Assembly: GCA_947585115.1 (NCBI GenBank)
Contig: CANPWW010000010.1
Span: 1-44,367, forward strand
DNA from: an uncultured Monoglobus sp.
GTDB taxonomy: Bacteria > Bacillota > Clostridia > Monoglobales > Monoglobaceae
Direction of reading: 5' to 3'
Length of the DNA stretch: 44,367 nucleotides
Shown here: positions 18,512-39,511 of the stretch, one piece after another
Layout: every line of letters starts with the position of its first letter
How positions within the stretch are numbered: position 1 is the stretch's first letter
Made by a program: the position numbers and the translations under genes
The notes under the pieces: model-generated
Told to the model about the DNA's origin: nothing
Seen by the model: the letters and a program-made list of their open reading frames with translations, nothing else
Database searches by the model: none

Positions 18512-20275
18512 CTATGTGTTCTTAGTTTTTAAAGCAAAAACAAGAATAAACATTACCTCTTCTATAAGATATATTATATATCTCGGGTCCTGAGCCGGTA
18601 TGCTCAAAAACAAAAGCGCGGTCGTTATCAAAGGAACCGACAAAACAATGAGGTATTTATATCGCCGCTTGAGCAGCAGAACGACCGCAGAGAAGATAAG
18701 CGCGAACAGCCAAAGTCCTCCGCGCCAGTACACCGGATTGACTAATTGGTTCCTGAACGTCATATCCGAAAGCGTCCTGGTCACAGATGTGCTGACAGTG
18801 CGCTTAAGCCCGCCGTCTCCCATTTCAAAGGCAATTTCTCCGCCCTCAAGCGGGGCCCACTCCGTGCCGTCGGAAGGTCTGCCGATCTCCCAAAGGATCG
18901 ACGTGATATCAAAGGCCGAGCTTATATATTCTTTCGGATATCTAAACAGCCACTTGAAATTCAGTTTCAATATCTTGGCGGCCGTTTCCGGATCGTTCAA
19001 TTTTTCCACATTATAACCTATATCTCCGTAGGTCCTTGAAATTTTATCCGCCCAATACTTGTTTTCCCGCGAGGTCTTGTTCCATTGCTCCCTCGGCATA
19101 ATCTCCTCCATAACGGCAACATCCTCAGCTGGTATATCCTCGACTTTGTTCGACACGGCTCCGACAAGATAAAGCGGCACAGTATATTTCACATATGACA
19201 AATCCTCATCTAAGCGCAAAATGCCGCGCGGGAACACGCTGTTTATGAATACCATACCGACGAGCACAATCGCCAGCAAAGCGCATAACAATTTTACAAA
19301 ATCCTGTTTTTTCACAAATCTGTAAACGCATAGCGCGACAAGAGCAAACCCCGTTCCGGCCCAACCTGCATGCCGGAATATGGCGGTACCAATACCGGAT
19401 ATTATAAAAACAAAAATATGGCGCGCGGTTATCTTTTCGCTCATCAGGCAATCAAACAAACCCAGGACAAAAAGAAACTGTGACATGCAATAGACCGTAT
19501 CCTTAATCATATATCCGCAATAAAGCAACGGCGTAAAAATAACAGCTGACGCAATACCGTAAACCTTGCATATCTTTTTTGAATGAAGCGCGTTATAAAG
19601 CAAGTATATCGCGTAATCATAAATGTATATTAAAAATATCCCCTGGAATACCAGCGTCAAAAACTGCCACCTTCCGCCAAGTGAAAATATTTTCACAAAA
19701 AGCATAAATCCTATAGTGTGCCATTCATACCACTCATGATTTACAACCCACTGCCAAACTCCGTATATATCCGGATATGTATATGACGGATAGCTTGCCG
19801 CCACATAAGCGATAACAACGGCGGCGATCGGCAAAGTTATATAATACAGCCTGATAAAAGGAATTCTGCCGGGTTTTTCATTCAGAACAACAGAATTATT
19901 CTTTTCGACCATAAAATATTCAAGGATCGTGATTATCATAATATATACCGCGGGTATTAACATAAGCATAAACACTATGCGGAACAGAATCCCCGCGATC
20001 GCATTTTCAAACTTTAGATTTACAAAAATCTGAGTGCACGAAAGCTGCAGCAAAAACAATACCGTAAGCGCCGCTGATATAATTTCGGATTTTTTGTCAT
20101 ATTTCATACCCTTGAACATACCGGTAAATATAAATAATGACGCCAAGGCAAGAGGAACGGCCGCAAAAACATACGCCCCGTCCGACCAATCAGCCGGGGT
20201 TATGAAAATAACAATGATCAATGCCACAAAAGCGTATTTCAGCGCCGCCGATATTTTGACTATCATACTGTCCAT
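18512..20275 (-). CDS. Large polytopic membrane protein, possibly DUF6020-like / GT-C type
   Basis: 587 aa from the ATG at 20275 (MDSMIVKIS, AAAGGATG upstream). The open frame to 20374 lies inside the previous gene and is not used. About 12–14 hydrophobic helices are seen, with a conserved-looking polar loop SYPSYTYPDIYGVWQWV followed by EWHTIGFMLFVKIFSLGG near residues 170–215. A long extracytoplasmic part lies at about 370–500. The layout suggests a GT-C glycosyltransferase, but no definite catalytic motif was identified. A truncated paralog lies at 22553–23307. The upstream gene stops 13 bases before, so they are cotranscribed. Confidence 0.72.
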   Translation of the reverse strand: MDSMIVKISAALKYAFVALIIVIFITPADWSDGAYVFAAVPLALASLFIFTGMFKGMKYDKKSEIISAALTVLFLLQLSCTQIFVNLKFENAIAGILFRIVFMLMLIPAVYIMIITILEYFMVEKNNSVVLNEKPGRIPFIRLYYITLPIAAVVIAYVAASYPSYTYPDIYGVWQWVVNHEWYEWHTIGFMLFVKIFSLGGRWQFLTLVFQGIFLIYIYDYAIYLLYNALHSKKICKVYGIASAVIFTPLLYCGYMIKDTVYCMSQFLFVLGLFDCLMSEKITARHIFVFIISGIGTAIFRHAGWAGTGFALVALCVYRFVKKQDFVKLLCALLAIVLVGMVFINSVFPRGILRLDEDLSYVKYTVPLYLVGAVSNKVEDIPAEDVAVMEEIMPREQWNKTSRENKYWADKISRTYGDIGYNVEKLNDPETAAKILKLNFKWLFRYPKEYISSAFDITSILWEIGRPSDGTEWAPLEGGEIAFEMGDGGLKRTVSTSVTRTLSDMTFRNQLVNPVYWRGGLWLFALIFSAVVLLLKRRYKYLIVLSVPLITTALLFLSIPAQDPRYIIYLIEEVMFILVFALKTKNT

Positions 20276-20288
20276 TTTAACACATCCT

Positions 20289-22499
20289 TTAAAGCTGATT
20301 ATCCTTTTTCGCCTGCGTGGAACCAGGCTTAATTTTCGGCAATATTTTTTTGCATGCCCGCAGCAATAGCGCAATAAGCGTCAGCATCGTTATTATATCA
20401 CCCAAACGATAGAACCACGTTCCGGAATATTTTATCTTTACGCCGGAGCTGTCGGAATTAAGCATTACTCTTAAGAGCCCATTGTCGCCCTGAACCACGT
20501 TAAGATTTTGTCCGGCATTATCTTTTGCTTTGTATCCCCAATAATAAATTAACGGGACCTCAACCCAGCAGTTATCCCTGCCGGGAGCTCTTGATAAATT
20601 AACATTAATATTCGTTCCGTCCTTTTTATAATCTTTAACGTTCAGAGAGCTGTCCGACGTTTTATAATCATTTGTCTCATATGACGCGCCTGTATTTACA
20701 GCGGCGGGCAGATAATCATATGATGCAAAAACATTTTTTTCACAGTAATAATTGGCTCCTTTTTTCAGATCCACGTCTTTTGTCAACGCGGACGCTCCGG
20801 AATAAAGCAAAGCCGCGGCGCATAGAATTGAAATTATCAAAATAAAACTCTTTGATCTTTCGTTTCGGCGCATACTGATTATCCACGCGCCGACAATGCA
20901 TATTATCGCCGATACCAACGCTATAAATCTCCACGGGAACTGAAGCACGTTATCAAGGGCGTTCACAGCGCCGATTTTTCCGGCAAACCATTGCCACGGA
21001 AACATTGTCGTGGACATAATCAATAAAACAACTCCGGAACCAAACAACATCGTCATAAATCCGTTATTCTTTTCCCTTTCGCCAGGATATACAAAATACA
21101 AAACACACACCGCAAGCGCGGCCAGAACCCCAATGCCCGGAGAAAGCGCAAGCGAGCCGCTGACACCCTTCAAATACGGTTTTCCTAGCGACATTGAAGT
21201 GCCGAAAACGTTAAAAATCTGTGCCGGCAGAGCGGATTCTGTCGGAAATTCCGTTTCCTTTGCCAGATCAAAAGTGCCGTTGATGTCAAATCCGATATAT
21301 GTGGTTATAAAAGCCACTATGAACCACGCGTTAATCAGAAGCGTCATTCCGGCCGCCTTAAGAAGAGCGAGCCATCTCTTATCCCGCGCAAGACGGCGGG
21401 AGGACAACGCCATTACTATTATTGTAAATATAACGCAGATCACCGTGCTTATAATATGTGTCTGCAAGATACAGGTTGCGGCTATTGTAAGTATATACCA
21501 TTTTTTGTCGCCCCAAAGAATTTCGTAAATACCGTATATAAGAAGAGGCAGGAAAACCATAGCGAGACCTTCGCCCATCGCTCCACGAATACATACCGTA
21601 AACACTCTCCATGTGCAGGTTGTATACAGCACCGCCGCCACGGCTGCCGCATATCTTGACTTTGTGATCCCCTTAACGCTGTAATATGTGATCAACGCTG
21701 TTGCAGCGGAAGCCGCGATCCATAAGGATTGATATGCTGTGACCAATGACACGCCACACAATCTCAACAACGCAGGAAAATACAAAAACAGATCCGGATA
21801 ATACAAGCTGACGGAATAGCCGTATCCGTTTATCTGCCGGGGCTGTATCCTGACAGGAAACTGTCCGGATTGAAGGCCCTCCTTTATTCCCTCGATCCGC
21901 TCAAGGTGAAACAATATATCGTGGCCGAATGACAAGTAATTCGTAAAAAACATATATGACGACAACAAGGCTACGCACATCAAAAAAACCGGCATGTAAG
22001 CATCCGCATTATCATTGTGTTTTCCGTATTTAACGTATAACAGCCACAGCAGTCCCAGCAGGAAAACAAAAGCCATAAAATACCGGTCGTTAAAAATCGA
22101 CCCGTGTCCAGTTACGGTAAGCTTTTTCAAATCAACGCCGTTTTCCGCTTTCACCGCCAGTTCCGTATAGTCCTTTCTCAGGCTTATCTCCTCGGCGTCC
22201 AGATCCGAGATTTGTCCCTCAAAAACAACTTCGCCGTCGCCGGATTCAATAATGATTTTTTCTTTTTTATTATTCTCATCAAAATCAAATTTGTAATCAC
22301 CTTCGGGCAGGGACAGCCTCGGCAAAAAATAGTTGTAATTATCCTTAGTCACATCAGTACTTAATTCAAAGCTTAGCTCGTTGGCGGGATCAATTCCCGA
22401 AAACAAGGTAAGAATAATCATTATTAAACCAATAATCAGCGCTCCAAACACCTTTATGGAATTATTGGACCTTTTTAATATTTTTGTTATTTCTTTCAT
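20289..22499 (-). CDS. Polytopic membrane protein of the PTPS-related (PF10131-like) type
   Basis: 736 aa. One helix near residue 20 is followed by an extracytoplasmic domain (about 40–125), then about 11–12 helices, a second outer domain (about 580–690) and a last helix. The segment SFGHDILFHLERIEGIKEGL and then GQFPVRIQPRQ, with DLFLYFPALL, resembles the membrane proteins labelled '6-pyruvoyl-tetrahydropterin synthase-related', which probably belong to the GT-C superfamily. The D-x2-F-H motif after the first helices fits a metal or lipid-phosphate site. GAAGGGGAG precedes the ATG. It sits between the intact and the broken copies of the same paralog family. Confidence 0.72.
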   Translation of the reverse strand: MKEITKILKRSNNSIKVFGALIIGLIMIILTLFSGIDPANELSFELSTDVTKDNYNYFLPRLSLPEGDYKFDFDENNKKEKIIIESGDGEVVFEGQISDLDAEEISLRKDYTELAVKAENGVDLKKLTVTGHGSIFNDRYFMAFVFLLGLLWLLYVKYGKHNDNADAYMPVFLMCVALLSSYMFFTNYLSFGHDILFHLERIEGIKEGLQSGQFPVRIQPRQINGYGYSVSLYYPDLFLYFPALLRLCGVSLVTAYQSLWIAASAATALITYYSVKGITKSRYAAAVAAVLYTTCTWRVFTVCIRGAMGEGLAMVFLPLLIYGIYEILWGDKKWYILTIAATCILQTHIISTVICVIFTIIVMALSSRRLARDKRWLALLKAAGMTLLINAWFIVAFITTYIGFDINGTFDLAKETEFPTESALPAQIFNVFGTSMSLGKPYLKGVSGSLALSPGIGVLAALAVCVLYFVYPGEREKNNGFMTMLFGSGVVLLIMSTTMFPWQWFAGKIGAVNALDNVLQFPWRFIALVSAIICIVGAWIISMRRNERSKSFILIISILCAAALLYSGASALTKDVDLKKGANYYCEKNVFASYDYLPAAVNTGASYETNDYKTSDSSLNVKDYKKDGTNINVNLSRAPGRDNCWVEVPLIYYWGYKAKDNAGQNLNVVQGDNGLLRVMLNSDSSGVKIKYSGTWFYRLGDIITMLTLIALLLRACKKILPKIKPGSTQAKKDNQL

Positions 22500-22552: not shown

Positions 22553-23307
22553 TCATACCGCATCGGGCTTCAGCGCCGCTAAAACGCCGTATATCGTACA
22601 TATCTTTTTTGAGTGAGAAATTTTATACAACAAATATATTGCGTAGTTATAGATATATTTATCAAAAACACTCCCTGAAAAACAAGCGTCAAAAACTGGT
22701 ATCTTCCGCCAAGTGAAAATATCTTCACAAAAAGCAACAATCCGATAGTATGCCATTCGTCCCAAGTATTTCCTGTCACCCACTGCCACACTCCGTATAT
22801 ATCCGGATACGTGTATGACGGATAGCTTGCCGCAACATAGGCGGCAACAACGGCAGCGATAGGCAGCGCCGTATAATACAGCTTTATAAAAGGAATTTTC
22901 GCGGGCTCATCATTCCGCTCGGCACGATCATCGTCTTTCATAAAAAGATCAAGTATCGTGCTTACCATAATATACACCGCCGGTACCAGCAGAACCATAA
23001 ACGCTATGCGAAACAAAATTCCCACAGCGGCGTTTTCAAACTTCAGGTTAACAAAAATCTGAGTGCATGAAAGCTGCAGCAAAAACAATACCGTAAGCGC
23101 AGCCGATATTATGGCGCGACCTTTCTCAAATTTCACTTTTTGAAACATTCCGGTAAATATAAACAACGACGCCGCCGCAAGAAGTGCGGCCGCAAAGACA
23201 TAAGCTCCGTCCGACCAAGCCGCCGGGGTCATGAAAATAACCGCTATAAGCGCTATAAAAGCATATTTAAGAATCGCCGTCGCTTTTGTTGTTATATTAT
23301 TATTCAT
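22553..23307 (-). pseudogene. Truncated, frameshifted paralog of the 18512–20275 gene
   Basis: Residues 1 to about 210 (MNNNITTKATAILKYAFIAL onward) align closely with the N-terminus of the intact gene, including SYPSYTYPDIYGVWQWV and VKIFSLGG. The reading frame then breaks near 22660. In another frame it continues as YNYAIYLLYKISHSKKICTI, again matching the intact copy (YDYAIYLLYNALHSKKICKV), and ends at a stop near 22553. The remaining two thirds of the protein are missing. At DNA level the shared parts are nearly identical in places (for example 23049–23100 and 20016–20067). This is a remnant of a duplication or of gene conversion and probably not a working protein. Confidence 0.88.
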
Positions 23308-23358: not shown

Positions 23359-24903
23359 CTATTTCGACTCATGGTACTCCTCCTCGGTGTTCACGTTCCA
23401 TATGGGCGATTTGTCTGTCTTGTGCTCCAGTATCGCGTCCACCGCCTCAAACGACGTCACCATCGAGTGGTCCATGTTGTTATAGCGGTGCTGGCCGTTT
23501 CTGCCCACGCAGTAGAGATTTTCAAAGCCGTTTAAATACTCTATAAGCTCGTCCATTTGATCGTAGGTGTCAAAATACGCCGGATACGCTTTTTTGACCC
23601 TCTCTCTGTGAGCATCCAGAACGTCTTTTTTGTCTATAACTCCGATCTTCTCAAGCTCGCCCTTCGCGAACTCGATAAAATCCTCGTCGCTCATGTTCCA
23701 GTATTCGTCGCCCTCGTCGCAGAAATACTCAAGCCCTATCCAGACCTTGTTTTCAAAATCCTCGACCATATAGGGCGACCAGTTGTTGAATATCTGTATC
23801 CTGCCCAGCTTTACCGAAGTGTCCTGCACATATATCCAGCAGTCTGGCACGATGTTTCCCACGGTCTTTATATTCGTCTTGTTCTCAAGCTTTAATTTGT
23901 CGACCAAAAGTCCCACCGTGATAAAATCGCGGTACGGAAGGCCGTCGGCGATCTTTTTCATTTCGGGCTCGGGTTTTGTGAAAGCGTTCAGCAGGTCTTT
24001 GACCGGCATAGACGAGATCAGCGCGTCGCACTCCATCGTCTTTCGCTCGCCGTTTTCGATATACTCAACTCCGATTATCTTTCCGTCCTTTTCGCTTATC
24101 TTAACGACCGGGCAGTTCATCTTGACCTCAGCGCCCATCTCGGCCGCTCTGTCGCACACCGTCTCCCACAGCTGGCCGGGGCCGAGCTTGGGATAGATAT
24201 ATTCCTCGATCAACGAGGTCTCGACCTTTTTGTTACCGCCGCCGAATACCTTGCCGAGCATGTCTTTAAGCACCGCCTTGATCGAAAGCCCCTTCACGCG
24301 CTGAGAGCCCCAGTCGGCGGAGATATACTTCGGGTGTCTGCCCCACAATTTCTCGGTATAGCCCTCGAAGAACATCGAGTAAAGCACCTTGCCGAAACGG
24401 TTGATATAAAAGTTTTCGAGCGAATTTTCGGGCAGCTTTTTCGCCGTGGCGCCCAAATACGAAAAGCCCGCCTTCATCGTGGTGAAAAATCCCATGTTCT
24501 TTATGGTCTCCCACTTCATGGTAACGGGATAGTCAAAGAACTTGCCGTCATAGTATATTCTGGACACACGATTGCGCTTGAGCATAACGCTGTCAGTCTT
24601 TTCGGGATCGGCTCCGCCCTCTTGGTATTCGCGCCTGCGGCCTAGTAAAATATCGTCTTTTGACGGCGCGCCCTGCGGCGGCAGTATGCTGTACCACCAC
24701 TCGGTGACGCGGTCGTCCTTCGAGAAAAAGCGATGTCCGCCTATATCCATTCGATTGCCCTTATATCTCACGGTTTGGGAAATACCGCCTATTCTGTCGC
24801 TTTCCTCAAGAATTGTCACGCTGTATTCCTTTGATCTGGTCAAAAGCTCGTGGGCGGCGGTCAACCCCGCGGGTCCCGCGCCGATTATAACTGCTTTTTT
24901 CAT
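23359..24903 (-). CDS. FAD-dependent oxidoreductase (amine-oxidase / UDP-galactopyranose-mutase-like)
   Basis: 514 aa, soluble. The N-terminal Rossmann motif is [16 protein letters not shown] at about 5–20, and the second FAD contact is I-G-G-I-S-Q near 38–43. Then comes [14 protein letters not shown] substrate domain holds [20 protein letters not shown] near 190–210, and the C-terminal FAD piece is [20 protein letters not shown]. The layout resembles protoporphyrinogen-oxidase-like and UDP-Galp-mutase-like enzymes that occur in surface-polysaccharide clusters. The real substrate is unknown; a sugar-nucleotide or lipid-linked sugar is a reasonable guess from context. AGAGAGG precedes the ATG. 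Base composition is close to the housekeeping genes, unlike the AT-rich genes on either side. Confidence 0.85.
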
Positions 24904-26607: not shown

Positions 26608-27054
26608 TTATTTCTTTGTATATATGATCTTCTTTCTCGCCACAAAGTTCCATACCAGTACGATTGCCGCCGCCACGATCTTTGAAAGCAGGAAGTACAG
26701 TCCTATCACATCGGTGAACAGCCACATGATAAGCTCGGTGAGCCCCAGGCCGATAACGCCGATAACCGCGTATATGATAAACTCCGCTGTTCTGCTTGTT
26801 GTCCGCTCATCGGCGCTGAACACAAAGCAAACCGACAGAACATAGTTGACGACCAGCCCGAACACGAACGCGATCGCCGCGGCTATAAGATAGTGCATAA
26901 ACTTCTCGCACAGCCACAGCGCGCCCGCGTCGGCCAGAAACGCTATCCCGCCGACAAATATATACCTGAAAAACTGTATAAACCAGTTTGTTGTCTCCGT
27001 GCGGAAAAGAACGTTCATGTCAAACCTCTTAAGCGCCTCAAAAAACTCTTTCAT
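26608..27054 (-). CDS. GtrA-family membrane protein (putative polyprenyl-phosphate-sugar flippase)
   Basis: 148 aa with four hydrophobic helices after a short N-terminal part. RYIFVGGIAFLADAGALWLC near residue 30 is the GtrA hallmark, and the C-terminus ends WNFVARKKIIYTKK, also typical. GtrA/GtcA proteins are thought to flip undecaprenyl-phosphate-linked sugars to the outer face, working with a GT2 (GtrB/CsbB) and a GT-C enzyme. Its ATG overlaps the stop of the upstream YfhO gene (TAATG). The coupling to YfhO fits the three-component scheme. Confidence 0.92.
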   Translation of the reverse strand: MKEFFEALKRFDMNVLFRTETTNWFIQFFRYIFVGGIAFLADAGALWLCEKFMHYLIAAAIAFVFGLVVNYVLSVCFVFSADERTTSRTAEFIIYAVIGVIGLGLTELIMWLFTDVIGLYFLLSKIVAAAIVLVWNFVARKKIIYTKK

Positions 27055-29630
27055 TATTTATGTGCTTCACCCCGTCCTTTTGTTCTTTTAAGTTTCGCAA
27101 GTCCCGCGAGGACGCCGCTTTCGCCGGAATATCTTTTAAGTGCCGCAAATGCCGCCAAAGTGATAAGCGTCAGCAGCGATATAAGCAGCGAGACGCCGAA
27201 TCCCAGCACATGGTATTTGAGCTTTATATGATGCTCGCCCTCTCCGGCGGGAATCCCCATAAACACGGTCTGAACGCATACAGGCTCGGTCTTTTTACCG
27301 TCAACATAAGCGGTCCAGCCCTCCTCATATGGGATCGAGGTAAAGAGCATTTCGCCGCTGTCGAGTTTCACGTCGCCCTCAATAGAAGAGCCGCTGTGCT
27401 CCGTGACCTTCAGCCGTTTTTCATCGGGTATGCTCCGCAACGCCTTGTCCAGCACATCGGTTTCGATTTTCGCGACTCTCGCGTTTTTCGAAAGCGCGGG
27501 GTCGGTAAAACTGATTTTAACCTGTTCCCCGGCGTTAAAGCTGCCGAGATAAAACACTTTTTTGCCGATACCCGTGTCGTACCCGTAGCCTCGGTTTGCT
27601 CCGTTCACGCTGAGCCGCGGAACGCCGTCATAGTTTCTGGCAAAGTCCGCGTAGTACATGCCGCTTTCCAAAGCGGTGAATTCAACCGCGTTTCCACCGT
27701 CCGCGGTGCGGGCCGGTGTCACGTTTTTAAATATAAACTGTCCCAGCAGTTTTTGAGCAAAATAATTTTCGTTGTCAAGGGCGTTGCCCGCGTTTGTGTA
27801 ATCGGATTGTATGTCGTTGTCTGCCGCGAAACCTATTTCCATGGCATAAGGATTTTCATATACCTTGTTTTCTCCCTGATCCTCGATCAGAGTATAGCTG
27901 TCATTTATTTTATCTTTTGAGATAACATATTTAACGCCGAGCAGCGTGTCGGTAAGTATGGTGGAACCCTGATAGCGGGAGCAGATGTACTCCTGTCTCA
28001 TGCCCATATCGAAATCGAATCTGAGTATGTTGTTATTATAGGTCGAGCTGTAATGCGTTATGCCGTTTAATCCAAAGCTCATATTGTCATTATCGGTGCG
28101 CAAAAATGTTTTTTCCGCGCGATAAAATCCGTCGTCCCAATTTTTAACGCAGTCCGCGGCCTCGGCAATGCCGTCAATCTCGCTCCGATATTCGGTATAC
28201 GTTGTGTACCCAAACTCGCGGTCAAGCCCTTTGAGGGTCGAATATCCGTTCACGGTAAGCTCCGCGCAGGTAAGCAAAACCATAACGGCGCAGACGGGCG
28301 GCGCGAATTTTTTTCCGCAAAAGCATATCACCGCTATCCCGATGATATAAGCCGCCGCGAAAGCAAGACTTAAATAAGCCCGATCCGGGAATTTTATGAC
28401 CTGCTTGTCGAATATCAAAACAGCCGCGAGCAGAGCCGCGTATACCGCCGCTCCCGCGATGATCAGCGGGCGTTTGGCGCCGCGCAGACGAATAAATCCG
28501 CTGTATGCCGTTAAGACGGCAAAAAAGCAAAACACGTAGGCGTATCTGTAAGGGAACCAGTTGGGATATTTGAACACGTGCCACGCGATATCGATATTTT
28601 TGACAAAAAAGCTTGCGATCAGTATGGCGAACACGCACAGTGAGGCGATCTTGGCGCGCGGCTTTATTTTATTGTTAAAGAAATATATCACCGACATAGC
28701 CCCGCAGAGCATGCCGCAGAATATGCTCGGCGCCCCTTTGTTTGTTATGCTGTCATACTGGCCTATGAACAATCGGCGCGGTATTTCAAAAATATTAACG
28801 TTCCAGAAACCCTCCGCGGTATACGTGTTCGACGCCAGCTTGCCGCCCAGCATATTAAGAAACGTGGGCAGCAGTATCACGCACGCAAGCAGCAGGCAAA
28901 CCGCTCCCGAGCCGATCAGTATCAAAGATTTTTTCACAAAATCCCCGACGCTCTTTTTCCCGCCCGCTGTCACGTATCTGTAAATATAATAGATCACCGA
29001 AAATATCGCCGTCATATAAGCGGTATAATAATTCGAGAACAAAGTCACGGCAAATGATATAATAAACAGAAACGGAGACCGTCCGCGGATAACCCGCTCA
29101 ATGCCGAGAAGCACTATCGGCAGCCAGATCACCGCATCAAGCCACATTATGCACATTCCGTACAACATCGAGTAGGACATGAGCGCGTAGCAGCAGGAAA
29201 ACAGCACAGTCGACAGATCGCACCGTTTAAACGCGTGACGCAGGAAAATAGCGAAAGTCAATCCGCACGCGCCGATCTTAAGCACGGTGATCAGCGCCAG
29301 CCCCGCGGGCATAGCCTTCTGGGGGAAGAAAATCATCAAAAGCGAAAACGGGCTTGAGAGATAATAGGTGAAAAGCCCGTATACGCTTCCGCCCATTTCC
29401 TTTGTAAAGGAATAAAAAATATTCGCCTGCCCGGTCAATACCCTGTGGAAATACGCGAAGAACTCACCGTATTGGTCGTCCATGTCCATCACCAGCACGG
29501 TCTTGTCGCCGAACGGATAGATCTTTAACAGCGCGTACACTATTATCATGCACAAAAGCGGCAGCGCGAAAGACAGCGCATACACGCATGTTTTTTTCTT
29601 TTTTGGGGTTTTTAAAAACTCGGTTATCAT
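27054..29630 (-). CDS. YfhO-family membrane glycosyltransferase (copy 1)
   Basis: 858 aa. About 12–13 helices over the first 480 residues are followed by a large outer domain (about 490–820) and one final helix. The first outer loop has LVMDMDDQYGEFFAYFHRVL (residues about 46–65) and FYSFTKEMGGSVYGLFTYYL, matching YfhO proteins (PF09586). In Bacillus/Listeria YfhO-type proteins transfer sugars from undecaprenyl phosphate to lipoteichoic or wall polymers. The acidic D-x-D-D-Q-Y loop is a plausible active site (inference). AAGGAG precedes the ATG. It overlaps the second YfhO gene by ATGA and GtrA by one base. Its base composition is GC-richer than copy 2. Confidence 0.92.
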   Translation of the reverse strand: MITEFLKTPKKKKTCVYALSFALPLLCMIIVYALLKIYPFGDKTVLVMDMDDQYGEFFAYFHRVLTGQANIFYSFTKEMGGSVYGLFTYYLSSPFSLLMIFFPQKAMPAGLALITVLKIGACGLTFAIFLRHAFKRCDLSTVLFSCCYALMSYSMLYGMCIMWLDAVIWLPIVLLGIERVIRGRSPFLFIISFAVTLFSNYYTAYMTAIFSVIYYIYRYVTAGGKKSVGDFVKKSLILIGSGAVCLLLACVILLPTFLNMLGGKLASNTYTAEGFWNVNIFEIPRRLFIGQYDSITNKGAPSIFCGMLCGAMSVIYFFNNKIKPRAKIASLCVFAILIASFFVKNIDIAWHVFKYPNWFPYRYAYVFCFFAVLTAYSGFIRLRGAKRPLIIAGAAVYAALLAAVLIFDKQVIKFPDRAYLSLAFAAAYIIGIAVICFCGKKFAPPVCAVMVLLTCAELTVNGYSTLKGLDREFGYTTYTEYRSEIDGIAEAADCVKNWDDGFYRAEKTFLRTDNDNMSFGLNGITHYSSTYNNNILRFDFDMGMRQEYICSRYQGSTILTDTLLGVKYVISKDKINDSYTLIEDQGENKVYENPYAMEIGFAADNDIQSDYTNAGNALDNENYFAQKLLGQFIFKNVTPARTADGGNAVEFTALESGMYYADFARNYDGVPRLSVNGANRGYGYDTGIGKKVFYLGSFNAGEQVKISFTDPALSKNARVAKIETDVLDKALRSIPDEKRLKVTEHSGSSIEGDVKLDSGEMLFTSIPYEEGWTAYVDGKKTEPVCVQTVFMGIPAGEGEHHIKLKYHVLGFGVSLLISLLTLITLAAFAALKRYSGESGVLAGLAKLKRTKGRGEAHK

Positions 29631-32182
29631 TTTATTTCTCCTTTCGTTCTTCTTAAAACGAAGGCTTTTATTTTTTCTTTATTTGCAAAAGCGATCAACG
29701 CCAACAGCGTGATGAGGGACACAGCGAAGGAAATTCTGAGCCCGGGAGCATGGAACTTGAGCTTAATTTGGTGGTTCCCCGCTCCCGCGGGAACAGCAAT
29801 GAACGTGTCAAACGCCTTAAAAAACTCTGTCTTTTCGCCGTCAACATAAGCCGTCCATCCTTTTTCGTATGGAATAGAGGTGAATATCACCTCTTCGTCA
29901 TCGAGGATTATGTCACCCTCAAGCCAAGTGTTGCCGTAATCCGTAATATTCAGTCGGCTCTCGGTTTTTATTCCGTCCGTACCGTTTTTCAAAGCGGTCA
30001 TGTCAATCATTGCAGCCATCACATTCCGGGATAGTTGTTTATCGCTAAAGCTTATTTTAACCGTATCGTTTCGGCCCAATTTGCCGATATAATATACTCT
30101 TTTTTCCTCTCCGAAATCATAATTATAGCTCCTTTTGATTCCGTTCACTTCCGCGTTCAAATCACCCCTGTAATATTGGCCGAGATCAATATAGTACGCT
30201 CCGTTTTCATTCGCCTTAAACTCCACCGCCATGCCGTTATCGGCAGGCTCGGCTGCATGAATGTCTTTAAATATATTATCCCCCTCTAATAAAATTGTTG
30301 ACAATTTATTTTGATTATCAAACACTGTGTTTTCGTTAGGGAGAGCGCTTAACGCTTTGTTCGAGGCCGCAAGACCAATTCCCAAAACGTAGGGATTTTT
30401 GTAAATCGAGTTTGTATCATCGCGTTTTATGAGTTCGTAGTTATCGTTGATTTTTGTATTTGGTTTTGTTATTATATAACGAAAATCCAATATGCTGTCC
30501 GTCAGCATCGTTGAGCCATGGTACTTAGCCGATACGCCTACTCGGCGCATTCCTAAAGCATCAAAAAAGTTAAAAATATTACTGTTAAAAGTTGACGTAT
30601 AAGAAGTGGCTCCTCTTATTCCACAACTCATATTCTCATTAAATCCGCTGCGCGAATATGTTTTTTCAAACCTGTAAAAATCCTCATCATAATCGGTTAT
30701 ATAATCAACCGCCGACTTTAATTTCCCGACAAATTCGGAGTAAGAGGAGTAATCCGCAGTGGAGAATGTTTTGTAAAGTCCGTTTATCATAACATATCCG
30801 TTAGTCGTCATTTCAACACATGCAACAGTCAACATTGCGCATATTGTGAAAAAACGATGCTTTTTACCAATATGTTTTTCGGCAAAAATCCACACGCCGC
30901 CAATAAAAATCAAAACAAATGTCACAATAGCAAATACCGTATTTTTTATAACGGTTCTATCGAATATAAATACCGCGATCAATATCAACAAATACAACAC
31001 TGTTCCGGCCGCTATCCATAAATAATCATCCCTTTTTAAACTATAGAACGAACGCGCCGCGACATATACGGCAAAAAAGCAAAACACATACGCGTATCTG
31101 TAAGGAAATCCTGTCGGCCAGTGAAACACATGCCATACTTCATCAATTTCTCGAACAAAGAAACTAACAAACAAAACCGCAAAAACAAGAAATGACGCAA
31201 GTTTTTCTCTTATTTTTATTTTGGGATTTAAAAACCAAATCAACACAAGTGTGCCGCATAACGTGCCGCAGAATATGCTCGGCGCCCCATTATTGAAAAT
31301 ACTGTCATATTGACCAACAAATAAACGTCTGGGAATCTCAAATATATTTTCATTCCAGAAGTTTGAAGGCTCATTTAAATCAACTGCAAATTTCCCATCC
31401 AACATACTTATCAGAGTCGGCACGAGAATAGGCGCCGCCAACAACGTACATATTAAAGCCGCGACCGCAAGGATACGCATTTTTTTAAAGAAATCCTTCG
31501 CGCTCTTGTTTTCATCGCTCGAAAAATATCTGAAAAGAAAGTATATAACAGTAAAAATCGCCGTCATATATGCAGTATAATAATTTGAATAAAGCGCAGC
31601 TGTAAACGCAAAAATGAATACAACCGGCGACTTTTTATCAAGCACCCTTTCTATGCCTAAAAGCACAATAGGAAGCCAAACCACGCCATCAAGCCACATG
31701 ATGTTCATCGAGTAAAACAACGGATATGTGGCAAGTGCATAGCTGCAAGAAAACAACACAGTCGTGAGATCGCATTTTTTTGAAGCGTTCGTAATAAATA
31801 CAGCGAAAGTCAAGCCTGCTGTTCCTATTTTCAGCATTGCAATAATAAATATGCAGATTGGCATTTTTTCCTGAGAAAAAAACGCGGCAAGAAGTGAAAA
31901 GGGACTTGAAAGATAGTATGCAAACATTCCGAAAGCATTAGCGCCCATTTCTTTAGTAAATGAATATATTATACTTTCTTTGCCGATTAATACTCTATGC
32001 AAAAAACCGAAAAGTTCAACATATTGTATGTTCATATCACTTACAAGCACTGTATTATTGCCAAACGGATATACTTTTAATATAATATAGATTACAAACA
32101 TGCACAAAAACGGTAGCGCAAAAGACAGCGTATACACGCATGTTTTTTTCTTATCTTTAATTTTAAGCATGCTTATACTCAT
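29627..32182 (-). CDS. YfhO-family membrane glycosyltransferase (copy 2)
   Basis: 851 aa, a full-length paralog of the next gene with the same layout: helices, a first outer loop LVSDMNIQYVELFGFLHRVL and YSFTKEMGANAFGMFAYYLS, a large outer domain, and a final helix. The acidic patch is weaker than in copy 1 (D-M-N-I-Q-Y against D-M-D-D-Q-Y), so the sugar or acceptor may differ. AGGTGGA precedes the ATG. The gene is clearly more AT-rich than copy 1, so if it arose by duplication the duplication is old, or one copy was acquired. The overlap ATGA couples its translation to copy 1. Confidence 0.92.
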   Translation of the reverse strand: MSISMLKIKDKKKTCVYTLSFALPFLCMFVIYIILKVYPFGNNTVLVSDMNIQYVELFGFLHRVLIGKESIIYSFTKEMGANAFGMFAYYLSSPFSLLAAFFSQEKMPICIFIIAMLKIGTAGLTFAVFITNASKKCDLTTVLFSCSYALATYPLFYSMNIMWLDGVVWLPIVLLGIERVLDKKSPVVFIFAFTAALYSNYYTAYMTAIFTVIYFLFRYFSSDENKSAKDFFKKMRILAVAALICTLLAAPILVPTLISMLDGKFAVDLNEPSNFWNENIFEIPRRLFVGQYDSIFNNGAPSIFCGTLCGTLVLIWFLNPKIKIREKLASFLVFAVLFVSFFVREIDEVWHVFHWPTGFPYRYAYVFCFFAVYVAARSFYSLKRDDYLWIAAGTVLYLLILIAVFIFDRTVIKNTVFAIVTFVLIFIGGVWIFAEKHIGKKHRFFTICAMLTVACVEMTTNGYVMINGLYKTFSTADYSSYSEFVGKLKSAVDYITDYDEDFYRFEKTYSRSGFNENMSCGIRGATSYTSTFNSNIFNFFDALGMRRVGVSAKYHGSTMLTDSILDFRYIITKPNTKINDNYELIKRDDTNSIYKNPYVLGIGLAASNKALSALPNENTVFDNQNKLSTILLEGDNIFKDIHAAEPADNGMAVEFKANENGAYYIDLGQYYRGDLNAEVNGIKRSYNYDFGEEKRVYYIGKLGRNDTVKISFSDKQLSRNVMAAMIDMTALKNGTDGIKTESRLNITDYGNTWLEGDIILDDEEVIFTSIPYEKGWTAYVDGEKTEFFKAFDTFIAVPAGAGNHQIKLKFHAPGLRISFAVSLITLLALIAFANKEKIKAFVLRRTKGEIK

Positions 32183-32245: not shown

Positions 32246-33195
32246 TCAATCATTTATACTTTGTTTAAATCTGTTCTCCGCCTCAATCAGACGATATTCA
32301 AAGTCCTGACGGTTTTTTTGAACTATCGTGGACAAGATCAATCCGGAAAAATATGCCTGAATCGCGCTTAAAACCACAAATCCGCACACTATCAAAGTAG
32401 GTATCCGCGGCACCAATCCGGTGTTGAAGTATTCGACAAACACCGGAATAACAAAAGCCGCCGCTATAATAACCAACACAAGCGACAAAAACGAAAAAAA
32501 CTGCTGCGGCTTATAGTTTTTATAAAGCCGCACGATCGTTTTCAGCACCTTAAAACCGTCGGAATAGGTATTGAGCTTTGACTCGCTGCCGGCGGGCCGG
32601 TCGCGGTAATCTATGACCACATTCTCAACGTGCATATTTTTGTCGACCGCATGGATCGTCATCTCGGTCTCTATCTCAAACCCGTGAGACAAAACCGGAA
32701 ATGTTTTGGCAAAATTATAACCAAACGCGCGATAACCTGTCATAACATCTTTTATATCGTTTTTAAAAAGCAAGTTTATGCTCTTCCTGACCACCGTGTT
32801 TCCAAAATTATGAAACGGTCGCTTATTTTCGGTATAATACGTTGACGAAAGGCGGTCGCCGACCACCATATCGGCATTCTTGTTAAGCACCAGATCCGCC
32901 ATTTCCCGCGCGTATTCGGCGGGATATGTGTCATCGCCGTCAGTCATAATGTAACACTCGGCGTCGATCTCGCGGAACATCCTGCGAACAACATTTCCTT
33001 TGCCCTGCAAATACTCACGCCTTAAAATGACCCCCCCCCCCGATCGTTTTTCACGACATTAACGGTATTATCGGTCGAGTTGTTGTCATACACATATATA
33101 ACAGCCTCGGGAAGCGCCTTCCTGAAATCACTTATAACTTTTTCAATTGTTTTTTCCTCGTTGTAGCAAGGTATCAGAACAGCAATTTTATCCAT
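32246..33195 (-). CDS. GT2 polyprenyl-phosphate glycosyltransferase, out of frame at a G11 tract (candidate phase-variable gene)
   Basis: Reading from the ATG at 33195, the protein begins MDKIAVLIPCYNEEKTIEKV and reaches DNNSTDNTV, the nucleotide-sugar site of family 2 transferases. At 33031–33041 lie 11 consecutive G (minus strand). With 11 the frame reaches TAA at 33022–33024 after 57 residues. With 12 (or 9) it continues without a break into GVILRREYLQGKGNVVRRMF, the metal-binding T-D-G-D-D (residues 85–89) and two C-terminal helices, giving about 316 aa. That complete protein is a normal dolichyl/undecaprenyl-phosphate sugar transferase. The ATG overlaps the stop of the upstream GT2 gene by 8 bases. 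Either slipped-strand phase variation (present state OFF) or a sequencing error explains the break. Confidence 0.88.
33031..33041 (-). repeat. Homopolymer of 11 G (C on the plus strand) inside a glycosyltransferase gene
   Basis: 11 consecutive C on the plus strand, with no comparable G or C run noticed elsewhere in the window. It lies in a variable loop after the nucleotide-binding motif, where added Gly residues would be tolerated. Confidence 0.95.
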
Positions 33196-34153
33196 TATCG
33201 TTTTCCCTTTTATTTAAATTTTTATTAATATTGGCATCTTTAATAATATATAACGGACGGCGTTTTGTCTCAAGATACGTCTTTGACAGGTACTGGCCCA
33301 AAATTCCGATCGACAGCAGCTGAAGGCCGCCCACAAGCAGTATGACGCAGATCATCGAAGGCCAGCCGTAGGCGCTGCCTCCGTATATCAGCTGTCTGAT
33401 TATTATAAATATTATGCCTATGATCGACACGAAAAACAGAATTATTCCCATCAGCGACGACAGCGCCAGCGGCGCGGTCGAAAAGCCCACGATACCGTCG
33501 ATCGAATATTTGAAAAGTTTCCAAAACGACCATTTGGTCTCTCCGGCGCTGCGGTTTATGTTCTCGTAGCCTATCCATTTTGTCTCAAAGCCGACCCACG
33601 AAAATATGCCCTTTGAAAATCTGTTATACTCGCACATATCGAGAACGCTGTCAACCATGCGTCTTGACATGAGCCTGAAATCCCGCGCGCCGTCCACGAT
33701 CTCGGTCTGGGATATATGATTTATCAGCTTATAAAACGCATGCGCGAACAGCGAGCGTATCTTTGCCTCGCCCTTTCGGTTCACCCGCCGAGTGGCCGCG
33801 CAGTCATACTCTCCATTCTTCACGATATCGTACATCTCAGGAATAAGCGACGGCGGATCCTGCAGATCAACGTCCATGATAACCACATAGCCGCCCGACG
33901 CGTTTTCCATTCCGGCGTACATTGCGCCTTCTTTTCCGAAGTTCCTGGAAAAGGAAATATATTTAACGCGCTTGTCCTTTTCGGAAAGACCGCGGATAAC
34001 CTCCTCGGTTTTATCCTTGGAGCCGTCGTTCACAAATATAAACTCAAACTCAACGCCGGACATACCCTCCGCGACCTTTGCTATCTCGCGATAAAATATA
34101 GGAACGGCTTCCTCCTCGTTAAAGCACGGAACTATGACGGATATTTTTTCCAT
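33188..34153 (-). CDS. GT2 undecaprenyl-phosphate glycosyltransferase (GtrB/CsbB type)
   Basis: 321 aa. The catalytic domain is at about 1–220: SVIVPCFNEEEAVPIFY at the start, V-N-D-G-S-K-D near 41–47, and the metal-binding MDVDLQDPP near 93–101. The R-F-S-K-G-I-F-S-W-V-G motif and two C-terminal helices (about 230–255 and 265–290) follow, as in GtrB, CsbB and YkoT. The enzyme would load a sugar from a nucleotide donor onto undecaprenyl phosphate at the inner face. It lies just upstream of the second GT2 gene, overlapping it by 8 bases, and 21 bases after the large membrane protein. Confidence 0.93.
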   Translation of the reverse strand: MEKISVIVPCFNEEEAVPIFYREIAKVAEGMSGVEFEFIFVNDGSKDKTEEVIRGLSEKDKRVKYISFSRNFGKEGAMYAGMENASGGYVVIMDVDLQDPPSLIPEMYDIVKNGEYDCAATRRVNRKGEAKIRSLFAHAFYKLINHISQTEIVDGARDFRLMSRRMVDSVLDMCEYNRFSKGIFSWVGFETKWIGYENINRSAGETKWSFWKLFKYSIDGIVGFSTAPLALSSLMGIILFFVSIIGIIFIIIRQLIYGGSAYGWPSMICVILLVGGLQLLSIGILGQYLSKTYLETKRRPLYIIKDANINKNLNKRENDNG

Positions 34154-36333: not shown

Positions 36334-39300
36334 TTAGTTGATCGAGTAGTCGTACTGACGCTGCATGTAAACAACTACGTCGCCTGTTCTCTCGTATGTT
36401 CTGATGTATACATAGTCGAGCATTCCAGCTACGGGGTTCTGCTCTGAGAAGCTGCCGTAGGTGATTACGTCGTTTGTTGTAACGCCTTCGTCGCCGGCGA
36501 GGTAACGGTCAACATAGATGTCACCGATACCGCCCAGACCTACTCTGGATCTGCTGCTTCTGGAAGCGTCATATACATAGTAGTTAGCCTGTACGTTGTT
36601 GAGCGATACAGATGTGATGTTACCAAAGTCGGGCAGAACGTCGCCTTCATTCATGGGAGCGATTCTTACTCTGTTACCGTTTCTGCCAACAACAGCACCG
36701 AATGTAACAACCTCATCAGTCGTTCCGGGATACAGCTTGTTGATTACCGGAACACCGGGATGAGCGCCGCCGCTTGTGATGTCGGATCTGATCTCGCCAT
36801 CGAAAGTCAGGTAAGGTGTAGCCGATGTGATATAATCACCGGTCTTACCGAACTTGAACAGTGAACCGGCCTGCGTGTCTCTTGTCAGGTCAGCATCGTT
36901 GAAGTCCTCGGATGTCTGAGCCTGGATAAGCTCGCCGTTCTGATAGTAGCTTACGGACAGAGTGCCGTTTGAGCCTTCGCCGACAGATGTTATCATAGCA
37001 ACGCCGGACTCGGGGCTTGTAGCGATATCTGTGTTGTAGAGAACTACTACGTCAGCATATCCGTTGGTGTTAGCGTTCGAGTACGCAACAGCTGCGTTAC
37101 CATCCATTGTTACGAGGTTAGAACCGTTTGCAACCGTGCAGTCCTCGGTAGCCTGACCGGAAGCGGACTCACCATACTTGAAGCCGTCGCCGGGTCTGCC
37201 GATGAAGAATACTGTTGTATCCTGAGTTACATCAATTCTCTTTGTGCCGATTCTCAGTTCCTGAGTTTCCTGATCGTATGTGAACTGGTCAACGCCGGCC
37301 AGGAGATCCAGTGTAGAATCAGCGTCAACGCCCGGCTGGTTGTCATAGGGCAGAGTAATCGATCTGATCGAACCGTTGGAAGCGCTCAGAGTTACGATCT
37401 GACCTACCATTGAATCAAGAGCGTCCTGAACGTTGTCGTGGTTCTTATACTGATATGTGATGTAGTCACTGGTTGTTCCACCGTCTACGAATTCGGCTGA
37501 CGGATTGTAGATAGTAACGTTCTGAGCGAATGTCGCTGTGTTCACATTACCGTCCTTGTATACGAACTGGATAACGGGAGCTGTCTCACCGAAGTTACCC
37601 GAAGCAACTTCCGCGTTCAGAATGTAAGCGTAGTTAGCGCCTGTGCCGCTTGTAGCGTTCAGGTCTCTGTTGTAGGCAACGATCTTGCCGTACTTGTCAA
37701 CATAGAATGTACCCGACGAACCGGCTCTGATAGTTGAAGGTGTGTAAGCGCCTTCAGCTACGTCATAAGCTGTGCCGTTGATCTCGTAAGCGGATCCTGT
37801 AGACGATGTATCCGAAGTAACCACACGGTTAACTGTGCCAGCAATAGCTGTAGCATCGCCGTTAAGAACCTCGATGTCATAATACTCGCTGCCGCTGTTT
37901 GAAGTGTTAGCTACGATAGAAAGTACATCCCACTCCTTGAGCTGTGTATAATCGTAGGGCTGACCGTCCTTTGTGATCTTGATGTAAGCGTTGTTAGCTG
38001 TAGACTCAAACTCAACCCTGTTAACCAGGTTGTCCTTGCCTCTGTCGCCTACGGCGTTCTTGAAGGAAAGGATGCCTCTGTTCGACAGCTCCTCAACTAC
38101 GCCGCCTACCGCGAGGTCAACGAAGATGAAGTCATAACCTGCTGTCTGGTTGTTGTCTATCAGTGTAACCTGTCCGCTGTAAGCGCTGTCAGCAGCAACC
38201 TTGTAGTTGGTGTTGTTGGCGTCGCCCTGAGGAGCGAATACGCTTGCGATGTCATAACCGCAGATTCCGTTGTAAACAACGTAAGCGCCGTTATCATCGA
38301 TGGGCAGTCTTGTGGGTGTTCTGTCGTTCTCGCCTCTCATGTAGTACAGAGCGGGACGATTTGTTGTGTCATAGTAGCTGAACTGATCGATGTTGAATGT
38401 AGCCGAAGAGTTCTGTCCCTCTGTGGGGATGATAGAAATCAGAGTAGCGATATCTGTGCCGTTTGTGCGGGCATAAGCTGTTACGTCATAACCGAAGTAA
38501 TCAGCAGCGTCTGTCGTGCCAACATAGAAATCATACTCGGGATTGTAGCCTTCATAAGGTGTGTCATAGTTGTTCGACTGAACCTTAAAGAGGTCTGTCA
38601 GAGCGATTCTTACTGTCTCGTCTCTGTAGGAGTTAACGCTCATAGCGCCGTTTAAGCCTGTAACCTCGTTGGATACAACGTTACCTCTCAGCTTGGTGAT
38701 GCCGAGGTACTCGCTCAGGCAGGTTCTCATGGGCTGCCATGTGCCGTCATAGATTACATACTGGCCGTTGCCGCCGTAAGCCATTCTGTCCATCAGAGGT
38801 GCCTCGATAGCGTTGTCAACCATCTGAGCAACCATTCCTCTTGTAGCCTCAACGCCGTCAGCGCCGCCGATAACACCGTCCAGAACCTTCTGTCTCTGAG
38901 CAGCGATCTCATATCCTACGGGATATCCGCCGTTCTCGAGAGCGTAGTTCTTGTAACCCAGTGTCTCCATGATCATCTTAACAACATCCTGATACAGAAC
39001 GTTATCATCGGGACCAAAGTTACCGTCGCCGTAACCGTTGATTATCTGTGTGCTTGTAGCCGCCTGGATATAACCGGAAGCCCAGTGGGTAGCGGGTACA
39101 TCCTTAAAGATTGTCTCTGTCTGAGCAACCGCGCCTGTACGACCCTGCATTCTCGCAATGATAGCTGTGATCTCAGCTCTTGTGATAGTGTCGTTGGGAC
39201 GGAAGCTCATAACGCCGTCATTGTTTGCATCGTCGCCTGTCAGAATGCCAAGCTGGTTTAATGTTTCGATTGCCGCAGCGTATGTATCGTTCTCAGCAAC

Positions 39301-39387
39301 ATCATCAAATGTAGCCGCAAACGCAACTGTGCTTACCAACATAGCAAACACCGCTACTAAGGCAATCACCTTTTTGAGATTTCTCAT
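36334..39387 (-). CDS. SLH-domain surface (S-layer-like) protein
   Basis: 1017 aa from the ATG at 39387. A signal peptide occupies about 1–25 (KKVIALVAVFAMLVSTVAFA, cleavage after A-F-A). Three SLH repeats follow: about 27–80 (FDDVAENDTYAAAIETLNQL, with T-I-T-R-A-E), about 92–145 (FKDVPATHWASGYIQAATST) and a weaker one to about 200. SLH domains bind pyruvylated wall polymer. The other roughly 800 residues are Thr/Ser/Asn/Asp-rich beta-type sequence of no family I recognise, with very few Cys. An AAGGAGG lies 11 bases before the ATG; an upstream TTG (39396) is too close to it. Codon use is markedly different from neighbours (AGA for Arg, few rare codons), as in very highly expressed genes. Confidence 0.92.
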   Translation of the reverse strand: MRNLKKVIALVAVFAMLVSTVAFAATFDDVAENDTYAAAIETLNQLGILTGDDANNDGVMSFRPNDTITRAEITAIIARMQGRTGAVAQTETIFKDVPATHWASGYIQAATSTQIINGYGDGNFGPDDNVLYQDVVKMIMETLGYKNYALENGGYPVGYEIAAQRQKVLDGVIGGADGVEATRGMVAQMVDNAIEAPLMDRMAYGGNGQYVIYDGTWQPMRTCLSEYLGITKLRGNVVSNEVTGLNGAMSVNSYRDETVRIALTDLFKVQSNNYDTPYEGYNPEYDFYVGTTDAADYFGYDVTAYARTNGTDIATLISIIPTEGQNSSATFNIDQFSYYDTTNRPALYYMRGENDRTPTRLPIDDNGAYVVYNGICGYDIASVFAPQGDANNTNYKVAADSAYSGQVTLIDNNQTAGYDFIFVDLAVGGVVEELSNRGILSFKNAVGDRGKDNLVNRVEFESTANNAYIKITKDGQPYDYTQLKEWDVLSIVANTSNSGSEYYDIEVLNGDATAIAGTVNRVVTSDTSSTGSAYEINGTAYDVAEGAYTPSTIRAGSSGTFYVDKYGKIVAYNRDLNATSGTGANYAYILNAEVASGNFGETAPVIQFVYKDGNVNTATFAQNVTIYNPSAEFVDGGTTSDYITYQYKNHDNVQDALDSMVGQIVTLSASNGSIRSITLPYDNQPGVDADSTLDLLAGVDQFTYDQETQELRIGTKRIDVTQDTTVFFIGRPGDGFKYGESASGQATEDCTVANGSNLVTMDGNAAVAYSNANTNGYADVVVLYNTDIATSPESGVAMITSVGEGSNGTLSVSYYQNGELIQAQTSEDFNDADLTRDTQAGSLFKFGKTGDYITSATPYLTFDGEIRSDITSGGAHPGVPVINKLYPGTTDEVVTFGAVVGRNGNRVRIAPMNEGDVLPDFGNITSVSLNNVQANYYVYDASRSSRSRVGLGGIGDIYVDRYLAGDEGVTTNDVITYGSFSEQNPVAGMLDYVYIRTYERTGDVVVYMQRQYDYSIN

Positions 39388-39511
39388 ATGTCTCAAATCC
39401 TCCTTAAAATATTAAAATTTTAATTTTTTTTACAAAATTAATTTACATTCGCCGCCGAAAAATAAACAGAACATTTTTATCCTATCATACTTTTTCTTTA
39501 GCTTACTACAG

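Follow-up and report, generated by a model that had tools for sequence, protein, structure and literature searches.

An uncultured Monoglobus species, a member of a genus within Clostridia, carries a run of 11 G that breaks the reading frame of a GT2 glycosyltransferase gene. We interpret this run as a lineage-specific, hypermutable contingency tract subject to slipped-strand change, and the gene as a surface-glycosylation GT2 that now stands OFF; we put the probability of this reading at roughly 0.8. An earlier note on the same DNA had proposed phase variation with the gene in the OFF state from the locus itself. The locus alone is insufficient for that proposal, but phase variation is the best reading because the G11 tract belongs to a set, seen in its own genome and across its genus and accompanied by series of tract lengths in other genes.

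The tract and the gene it interrupts

The window, meaning the whole stretch of 44,367 nucleotides that was analysed, corresponds to one contig (C10) of the genome (G000). The tract is found at 33031-33041, where C11 on the forward strand is G11 in the minus-strand GT2 gene. On the coding strand it is flanked by C and T, its 3' flank being TC and not TA, and a run count over the whole window gave no second G/C run of at least eight. Read from 33195, the frame codes for 57 residues and then reaches a stop just beyond the G11 (33022..33195, minus strand). The 51 residues preceding the tract match Glycos_transf_2 (Pfam, E 1.5e-8, 35.2 bits for a cut-off of 23.3). The 3' part of the gene, 254 aa at 32246..33010 on the minus strand, is open in a frame different from that of the 5' part and contains no further break. 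The run itself, the stop after 57 residues and the intact remainder past the tract are as the earlier note had described them.

The 3' part resembles AglJ and DPMS enzymes. When the two parts were searched separately against the AglJ model (TIGR04182, NCBIfam), they scored 162 bits (3' part) and 33.7 bits, both under the cut-off of 325, and the 3' part also matched the dolichol-phosphate-mannose synthase 5mlz (E 4e-4). No Pfam match was obtained for it at 1e-4. The protein is probably a polyprenyl-phosphate sugar transferase. Rfam and tRNA scans over the window returned nothing.

Host genome and gene neighbourhood

The genome comprises 2,342,091 bases and is 90.36% complete; since it is in 125 contigs, it is probably a metagenome assembly. 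The contig that bears the GT2 tract gene also carries dnaA, and the locus is therefore chromosomal. A PgfS-like GT2 gene (33188..34153, minus strand) shares 8 bases with the start of the tract gene. On the same strand, the next gene downstream of the tract gene encodes a YfhO membrane protein (29627..32182, PF09586, E 1.2e-169), and a second YfhO membrane protein (27054..29630, PF09586, E 1.7e-189) and a GtrA/DPMS transmembrane protein (26608..27054, PF04138, E 2.8e-22) are also encoded there, so that the GtrA and YfhO partners previously assigned to the GT2 are confirmed by their Pfam matches. An S-layer homology protein encoded near the cluster (36334..39396, minus strand, PF00395, E 5.7e-23) is a possible surface substrate. 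This arrangement is only partly conserved, because among ten tract-free orthologues of the genus and family, considered with flanks of about 1.5 kb, a PgfS-like gene is near the GT2 in three and a YfhO gene in one (G005).

Elsewhere in the window, a 242-aa frame at 22579-23307 is like the first third of a 620-aa membrane protein (18512-20374) and ends in a frameshifted tail; it has no G/C run of at least 8 and is a truncated paralogue.

The tract site in relatives

At high identity, the GT2 gene is present in seven of the 11 remaining genomes of the genus and in three additional family genomes; the other four genus genomes gave no match, which counts against our reading. None of these ten orthologues has a G run longer than 4 at the tract site. 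To these ten we added 80 genome_contigs loci, one genome being in both samples, which gave 90 loci. The site could be recognised in 83 of them, with a longest G run of 2-4 and none above 4. The G11 at this site is private to this genome. The earlier note had counted a lack of any G run in relatives against its own proposal, and such a lack is what we found. We do not regard it as decisive, because tracts appear and disappear between species: a flavin oxidoreductase gene of the window (23359..24903, minus strand) is tract-free, and its homologue in G010 has an in-frame G9. On the other hand, since the GT2 tract is private, selective maintenance of it cannot be demonstrated.

It had also been suggested that the tract encodes a Gly-rich loop of variable length. 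This was wrong, as the segment from DNN to QGKGN measures 29 aa in 82 of the 83 loci. With a tract of the length usual in the genus, the GT2 segment would exceed that of relatives by two residues; the flavin oxidoreductase loop of G010 likewise has two residues more than that of the window. An exact insertion of nine G into a tract-free site was considered and is unsupported, the two cases, compared by eye, differing by six bases.

The 3' part of the GT2 shares 81-87% identity with four orthologues over 248-251 residues. Its dN/dS is 0.026 and 0.055 against two of them, and dS is saturated against the other two. Judged by the two unsaturated comparisons, the sequence beyond the tract was under constraint until recently. 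One scan of viral_contigs gave no second record of the species, and no length variation was seen at the GT2 locus.

Long G runs of this genome compared with chance

The number of runs expected by chance was calculated from Markov models of orders 1-5, trained on 224 kb of this genome (nine 20-kb stretches and the window) and scaled to 2.34 Mb. Four runs of at least 11 G are present for 0.006-0.36 expected, and ten of at least 9 G for 0.3-6.9 expected. Runs of at least 11 are thus in clear excess, but under the order-1 model the excess of runs of at least 9 is weak (10 for 6.9).

The ten tracts include four G11 and one G10. Four tracts are inside genes, namely the GT2 (G11, OFF), an acyltransferase (G9, ON), a BspA-LRR protein (G10, OFF) and another signal-peptide protein (G11, OFF), while three lie upstream of signal-peptide genes (C1, C16 and C47). 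The last three occur in a repeated intergenic sequence, CTGA-Gn (C14, C29 and C82), and were set apart from the set as probably unrelated. In addition, this genome contains a single exact G8 with C and TAC flanks (L228, G000:C50:2545-2554), perhaps an eleventh member.

These counts bear on the idea that a single slip produced a recent pseudogene, fixed OFF and heading for decay. The frameshift in the GT2, the lack of a match for it in four of the 11 other genus genomes and the private nature of the tract would all agree with such a history. However, nothing else is broken past the tract, the dN/dS values are low in the two unsaturated comparisons, G11 runs are rare by chance, and this genome has further long tracts in genes of the contingency type. 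We therefore hold a fixed pseudogene to be highly improbable, and keep to a contingency tract.

A genus-wide set of tracts

Among 12 genus genomes, nine contain tracts of at least G9, 105 in total and up to 18 per genome; none was found in G001, G007 or the single-contig G008. The sampled GC content is 41% for G008 and 51% for the genome under study. All 105 tracts were inspected, and five whose 15-base flanks were identical to those of another were dropped, leaving 100 distinct tracts: 80 G9, 9 G10, 9 G11 and 2 G12. Runs of exactly eight G number 30, spread over 10 of these 12 genomes, and 11 of the 30 have C before and T after.

Without counting the GT2 of the window, 22 of the 28 tract-gene pieces scanned gave a Pfam match at 1e-4. 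The families comprise Acyl_transf_3 (5), MBOAT, PMT_2 (just under the cut-off), sugar-transfer ATP-grasp, polysaccharide deacetylase, cytidylyltransferase, flavin oxidoreductase, BspA-LRR, SLH and Ig-like, as well as HsdS, N6_Mtase with Methylase_S, N6_N4_Mtase, MethyltransfD12, MTTB, GHKL kinase, PemK and GNAT. Four tract genes are of restriction-modification type, and many others are of glycan, acyltransferase or surface-protein type. Some tracts are outside coding sequence, upstream of genes.

We also observed a repeated small-ORF family with 18 loci (L149-L151, L158, L172, L174, L176, L193, L194 and L204 among them). Its layout consists of a ribosome-binding-like site, a start, about 20 codons and G9 to G12, followed by a short tail and then a strong hairpin resembling a terminator. 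Both G003 and G010 have several copies, and none of the ten tracts of the genome under study belongs to it.

Tract length and reading frame

The relation between length and frame was followed on 35 hand-picked coding tracts for which the frame could be told; tracts at contig ends and gene ends, in leaders and in the small-peptide family were left out, as was the C-run gene L175. At G9, 28 of 30 coding tracts are in frame, and at G10 or G11, none of five. By a script count, in 20 of 23 families the frame is open only when the tract length is a multiple of three (p 1.6e-7 at an expectation of one third); merging homologous families (L168 and one of L182) gives a fairer 19 of 22 (p 4e-7). MBOAT, one unnamed family and one mixed family depart from this rule. 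G9 would then be the usual in-frame state across the Monoglobus tract set.

Two families offer series of lengths. In a signal-peptide family with seven loci, G8 is OFF three times, G9 is ON three times and G10, from this genome, is OFF once. In a second family, G9 is ON (L053), G10 is OFF (L166) and G11, again from this genome, is OFF. Homologous tracts thus vary in length among loci of other tract genes; at the GT2 site, none of the 83 orthologues has a tract.

These series help to weigh two further explanations. The first is that the tract is real but its consensus length is wrong, most cells being in frame and the GT2 ordinarily ON. An assembly in 125 contigs, probably of metagenomic origin, and the prevalence of G9 in the genus (80 of 100) are in line with it, and so is a case from Bifidobacterium breve, for which the available part of one paper contrasts an annotated G11 with about 37% G11 and 60% G12 in cultures (PMC9187656). 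However, the out-of-frame lengths 8, 10 and 11 recur in independent genomes and in other tract genes, and if cells of one population differed in tract length, that in itself would amount to phase variation. We give a miscalled length only a small chance of being the explanation.

The second is recoding, in which slippage of RNA polymerase or the ribosome along the run would yield some full-length enzyme at any DNA length. Homopolymer runs are known slippage sites, and this general knowledge speaks for it. Recoding nevertheless does not account for the different tract lengths at homologous loci of other genes, and it fails to explain tracts located upstream of genes, outside coding sequence. 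It is very improbable.

Under slipped-strand phase variation, replication slippage would alter the number of G in the GT2 tract, lengths in the right register giving the full-length enzyme and other lengths a short stub. As its families suggest, the enzyme would attach a sugar to polyprenyl phosphate for use by a membrane transferase, and cells of one clone could then differ in a single surface-glycan sugar. By polarity, the early stop might in addition reduce expression of the downstream YfhO genes. We infer the role of the enzyme, the surface phenotype and slippage in growing cells from these sequence data. If this reading is true, a population would contain cells that differ in the state of their glycans, surface proteins and DNA methylation, and a frameshifted gene in an assembled genome of this kind should not be taken for dead on that ground alone.

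Sequence flanking the tracts

Across the genus set, the base before the tract is C in 82 of 100 cases and the base after it is T in 83 of 99, with both found in 77 of 99. In the genome sample, shorter runs have both flanks in 18% of G4 and 8% of G5. When similar flanks were merged by single linkage into 36 groups, one of which is a lumped group of 48, C was found before 29 of 36 and T after 29 of 35. Among the 35 framed coding tracts, C precedes 34 and T follows all 35, in all three codon positions. Codon choice as a cause of the flanks was rejected, since they hold in each position.

Of 391 Clostridia genomes, 13 contain the extended motif TC-G9-TA, with 40 copies in all: 30 in seven Monoglobus genomes (8 of the 12 having been drawn), 2 in two other genera of the family and 8 in four of the six drawn genomes of another genus, g83 (family f56). 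The reversed motif, taken as a control, was found 0 times in the same 391 genomes. Likewise, a search of 148 genomes gave 34 copies of CG9TA in 7 of them, four Monoglobus genomes holding 31 of the copies, and a single copy of its reverse. One copy outside the Monoglobus family (L292, in G237, from the Clostridia genus with these 8 copies) has TC-G9-TA directly before a promoter-like TTGACT-17-TATAAT. In G006, the sole tract that appears as C9 on the coding strand is near the start of a long gene (L175); it keeps the usual DNA flanks, and therefore the flanks follow the G strand and not the gene.

Slippage by itself does not readily account for the near-constant flanks or for the length of nine, which call for an additional mechanism. 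It is conceivable, though unlikely in our view, that TC-G9-TA is a defined DNA element that is read or maintained in Monoglobus and in at least one other genus, g83. Its reader could be a factor that binds the tract, a nuclease or recombinase, or an activity devoted to slippage or repair. Such an activity would set both the flanks and a length near nine, at any codon position and in as well as upstream of genes, and the G11 of the window would be a drifted copy.

Mismatch-repair genes

Both mutS1 and mutL score over the cut-off in 37 of the 38 family genomes, the genome under study included in each case. Loss of mismatch repair as the cause of the tracts is thus rejected for the genes tested, as mutS1 and mutL are present. 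To our knowledge, mutS and mutL are absent in Campylobacter and the epsilonproteobacteria, and their presence here counts against our reading. The mutS1 of G005 (C98) and the mutL of G001 (C15) each match in two pieces with their own open frames; frameshifts in these repair genes and assembly errors are both possible.

Comparison with known systems

The closest likeness for the gene cluster is with the streptococcal Pgf protein-glycosylation cluster, of which we take NCBIfam NF047588-NF047590 to be the models. In both, a PgfS-like GT2 is near YfhO proteins, two of them in the window. The window proteins, however, score below the equivalog cut-offs: 336.8 bits for 33188..34153 against PgfS (cut-off 500), and, for the one YfhO protein scanned, 281.1 of 1400 for PgfM1 and 266.8 of 1500 for PgfM2. 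In addition, the window includes a GtrA protein and the AglJ/DPMS-like GT2 with its tract.

Poly-G switching is already known in Campylobacter and Bifidobacterium breve, and G/C tracts are abundant in Gardnerella. In the open-licence literature, we found nothing on phase variation in Monoglobus, nor on simple sequence repeats with phase variation in gut Lachnospiraceae. The available text of a 2025 review names Clostridioides for invertible promoters and a signal transducer (PMC11868660), and that of a survey of 99 genomes states that poly-G/poly-C runs longer than 2 bases are generally under-represented (PMC2831843).

In Gardnerella, according to the accessible portion of one study, G/C tracts of 8 or more have a median of 20 per genome and about 70% of them are upstream of genes (PMC11287997). 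Monoglobus resembles it as a genus with many G/C tracts, some in surface-protein genes. It differs in that the Gardnerella tracts are mostly upstream of genes, and that portion of the study mentions no flank motif.

In B. breve, an intragenic G tract switches sortase-dependent pili with measured slippage, and the authors also mention tracts in promoter spacers, as far as the available sections of the paper go (PMC9187656). Both cases involve a Gram-positive gut commensal, an intragenic G tract and frame-dependent expression. B. breve, however, belongs to Actinobacteria and switches pilus genes, whereas the Clostridia set described here covers a wide range of genes with slippage that we infer.

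Finally, Campylobacter jejuni NCTC 11168 has 29 poly-G/C contingency loci of seven or more repeats, and colony measurements gave major peaks at G8 (257), G9 (214), G10 (431), G11 (77) and G12 (9), as reported in the accessible part of that work (PMC4965091). The same part concludes from PCR slippage that the rate is mainly set by the number of repeats and not by flanking sequence, a finding that argues against the flanks having a part in how fast tracts slip. The two organisms share many poly-G tracts per genome, frame-dependent ON/OFF states and surface-modification genes. In C. jejuni, the reported peaks are spread from G8 to G12 (colonies, not loci), whereas 80 of the 100 tracts studied here are G9, with near-constant C and T flanks in the Monoglobus set and with mutS and mutL present. 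If our reading is true, simple-repeat phase variation on a Campylobacter-like scale would operate in a Gram-positive gut genus that keeps its mismatch-repair genes.
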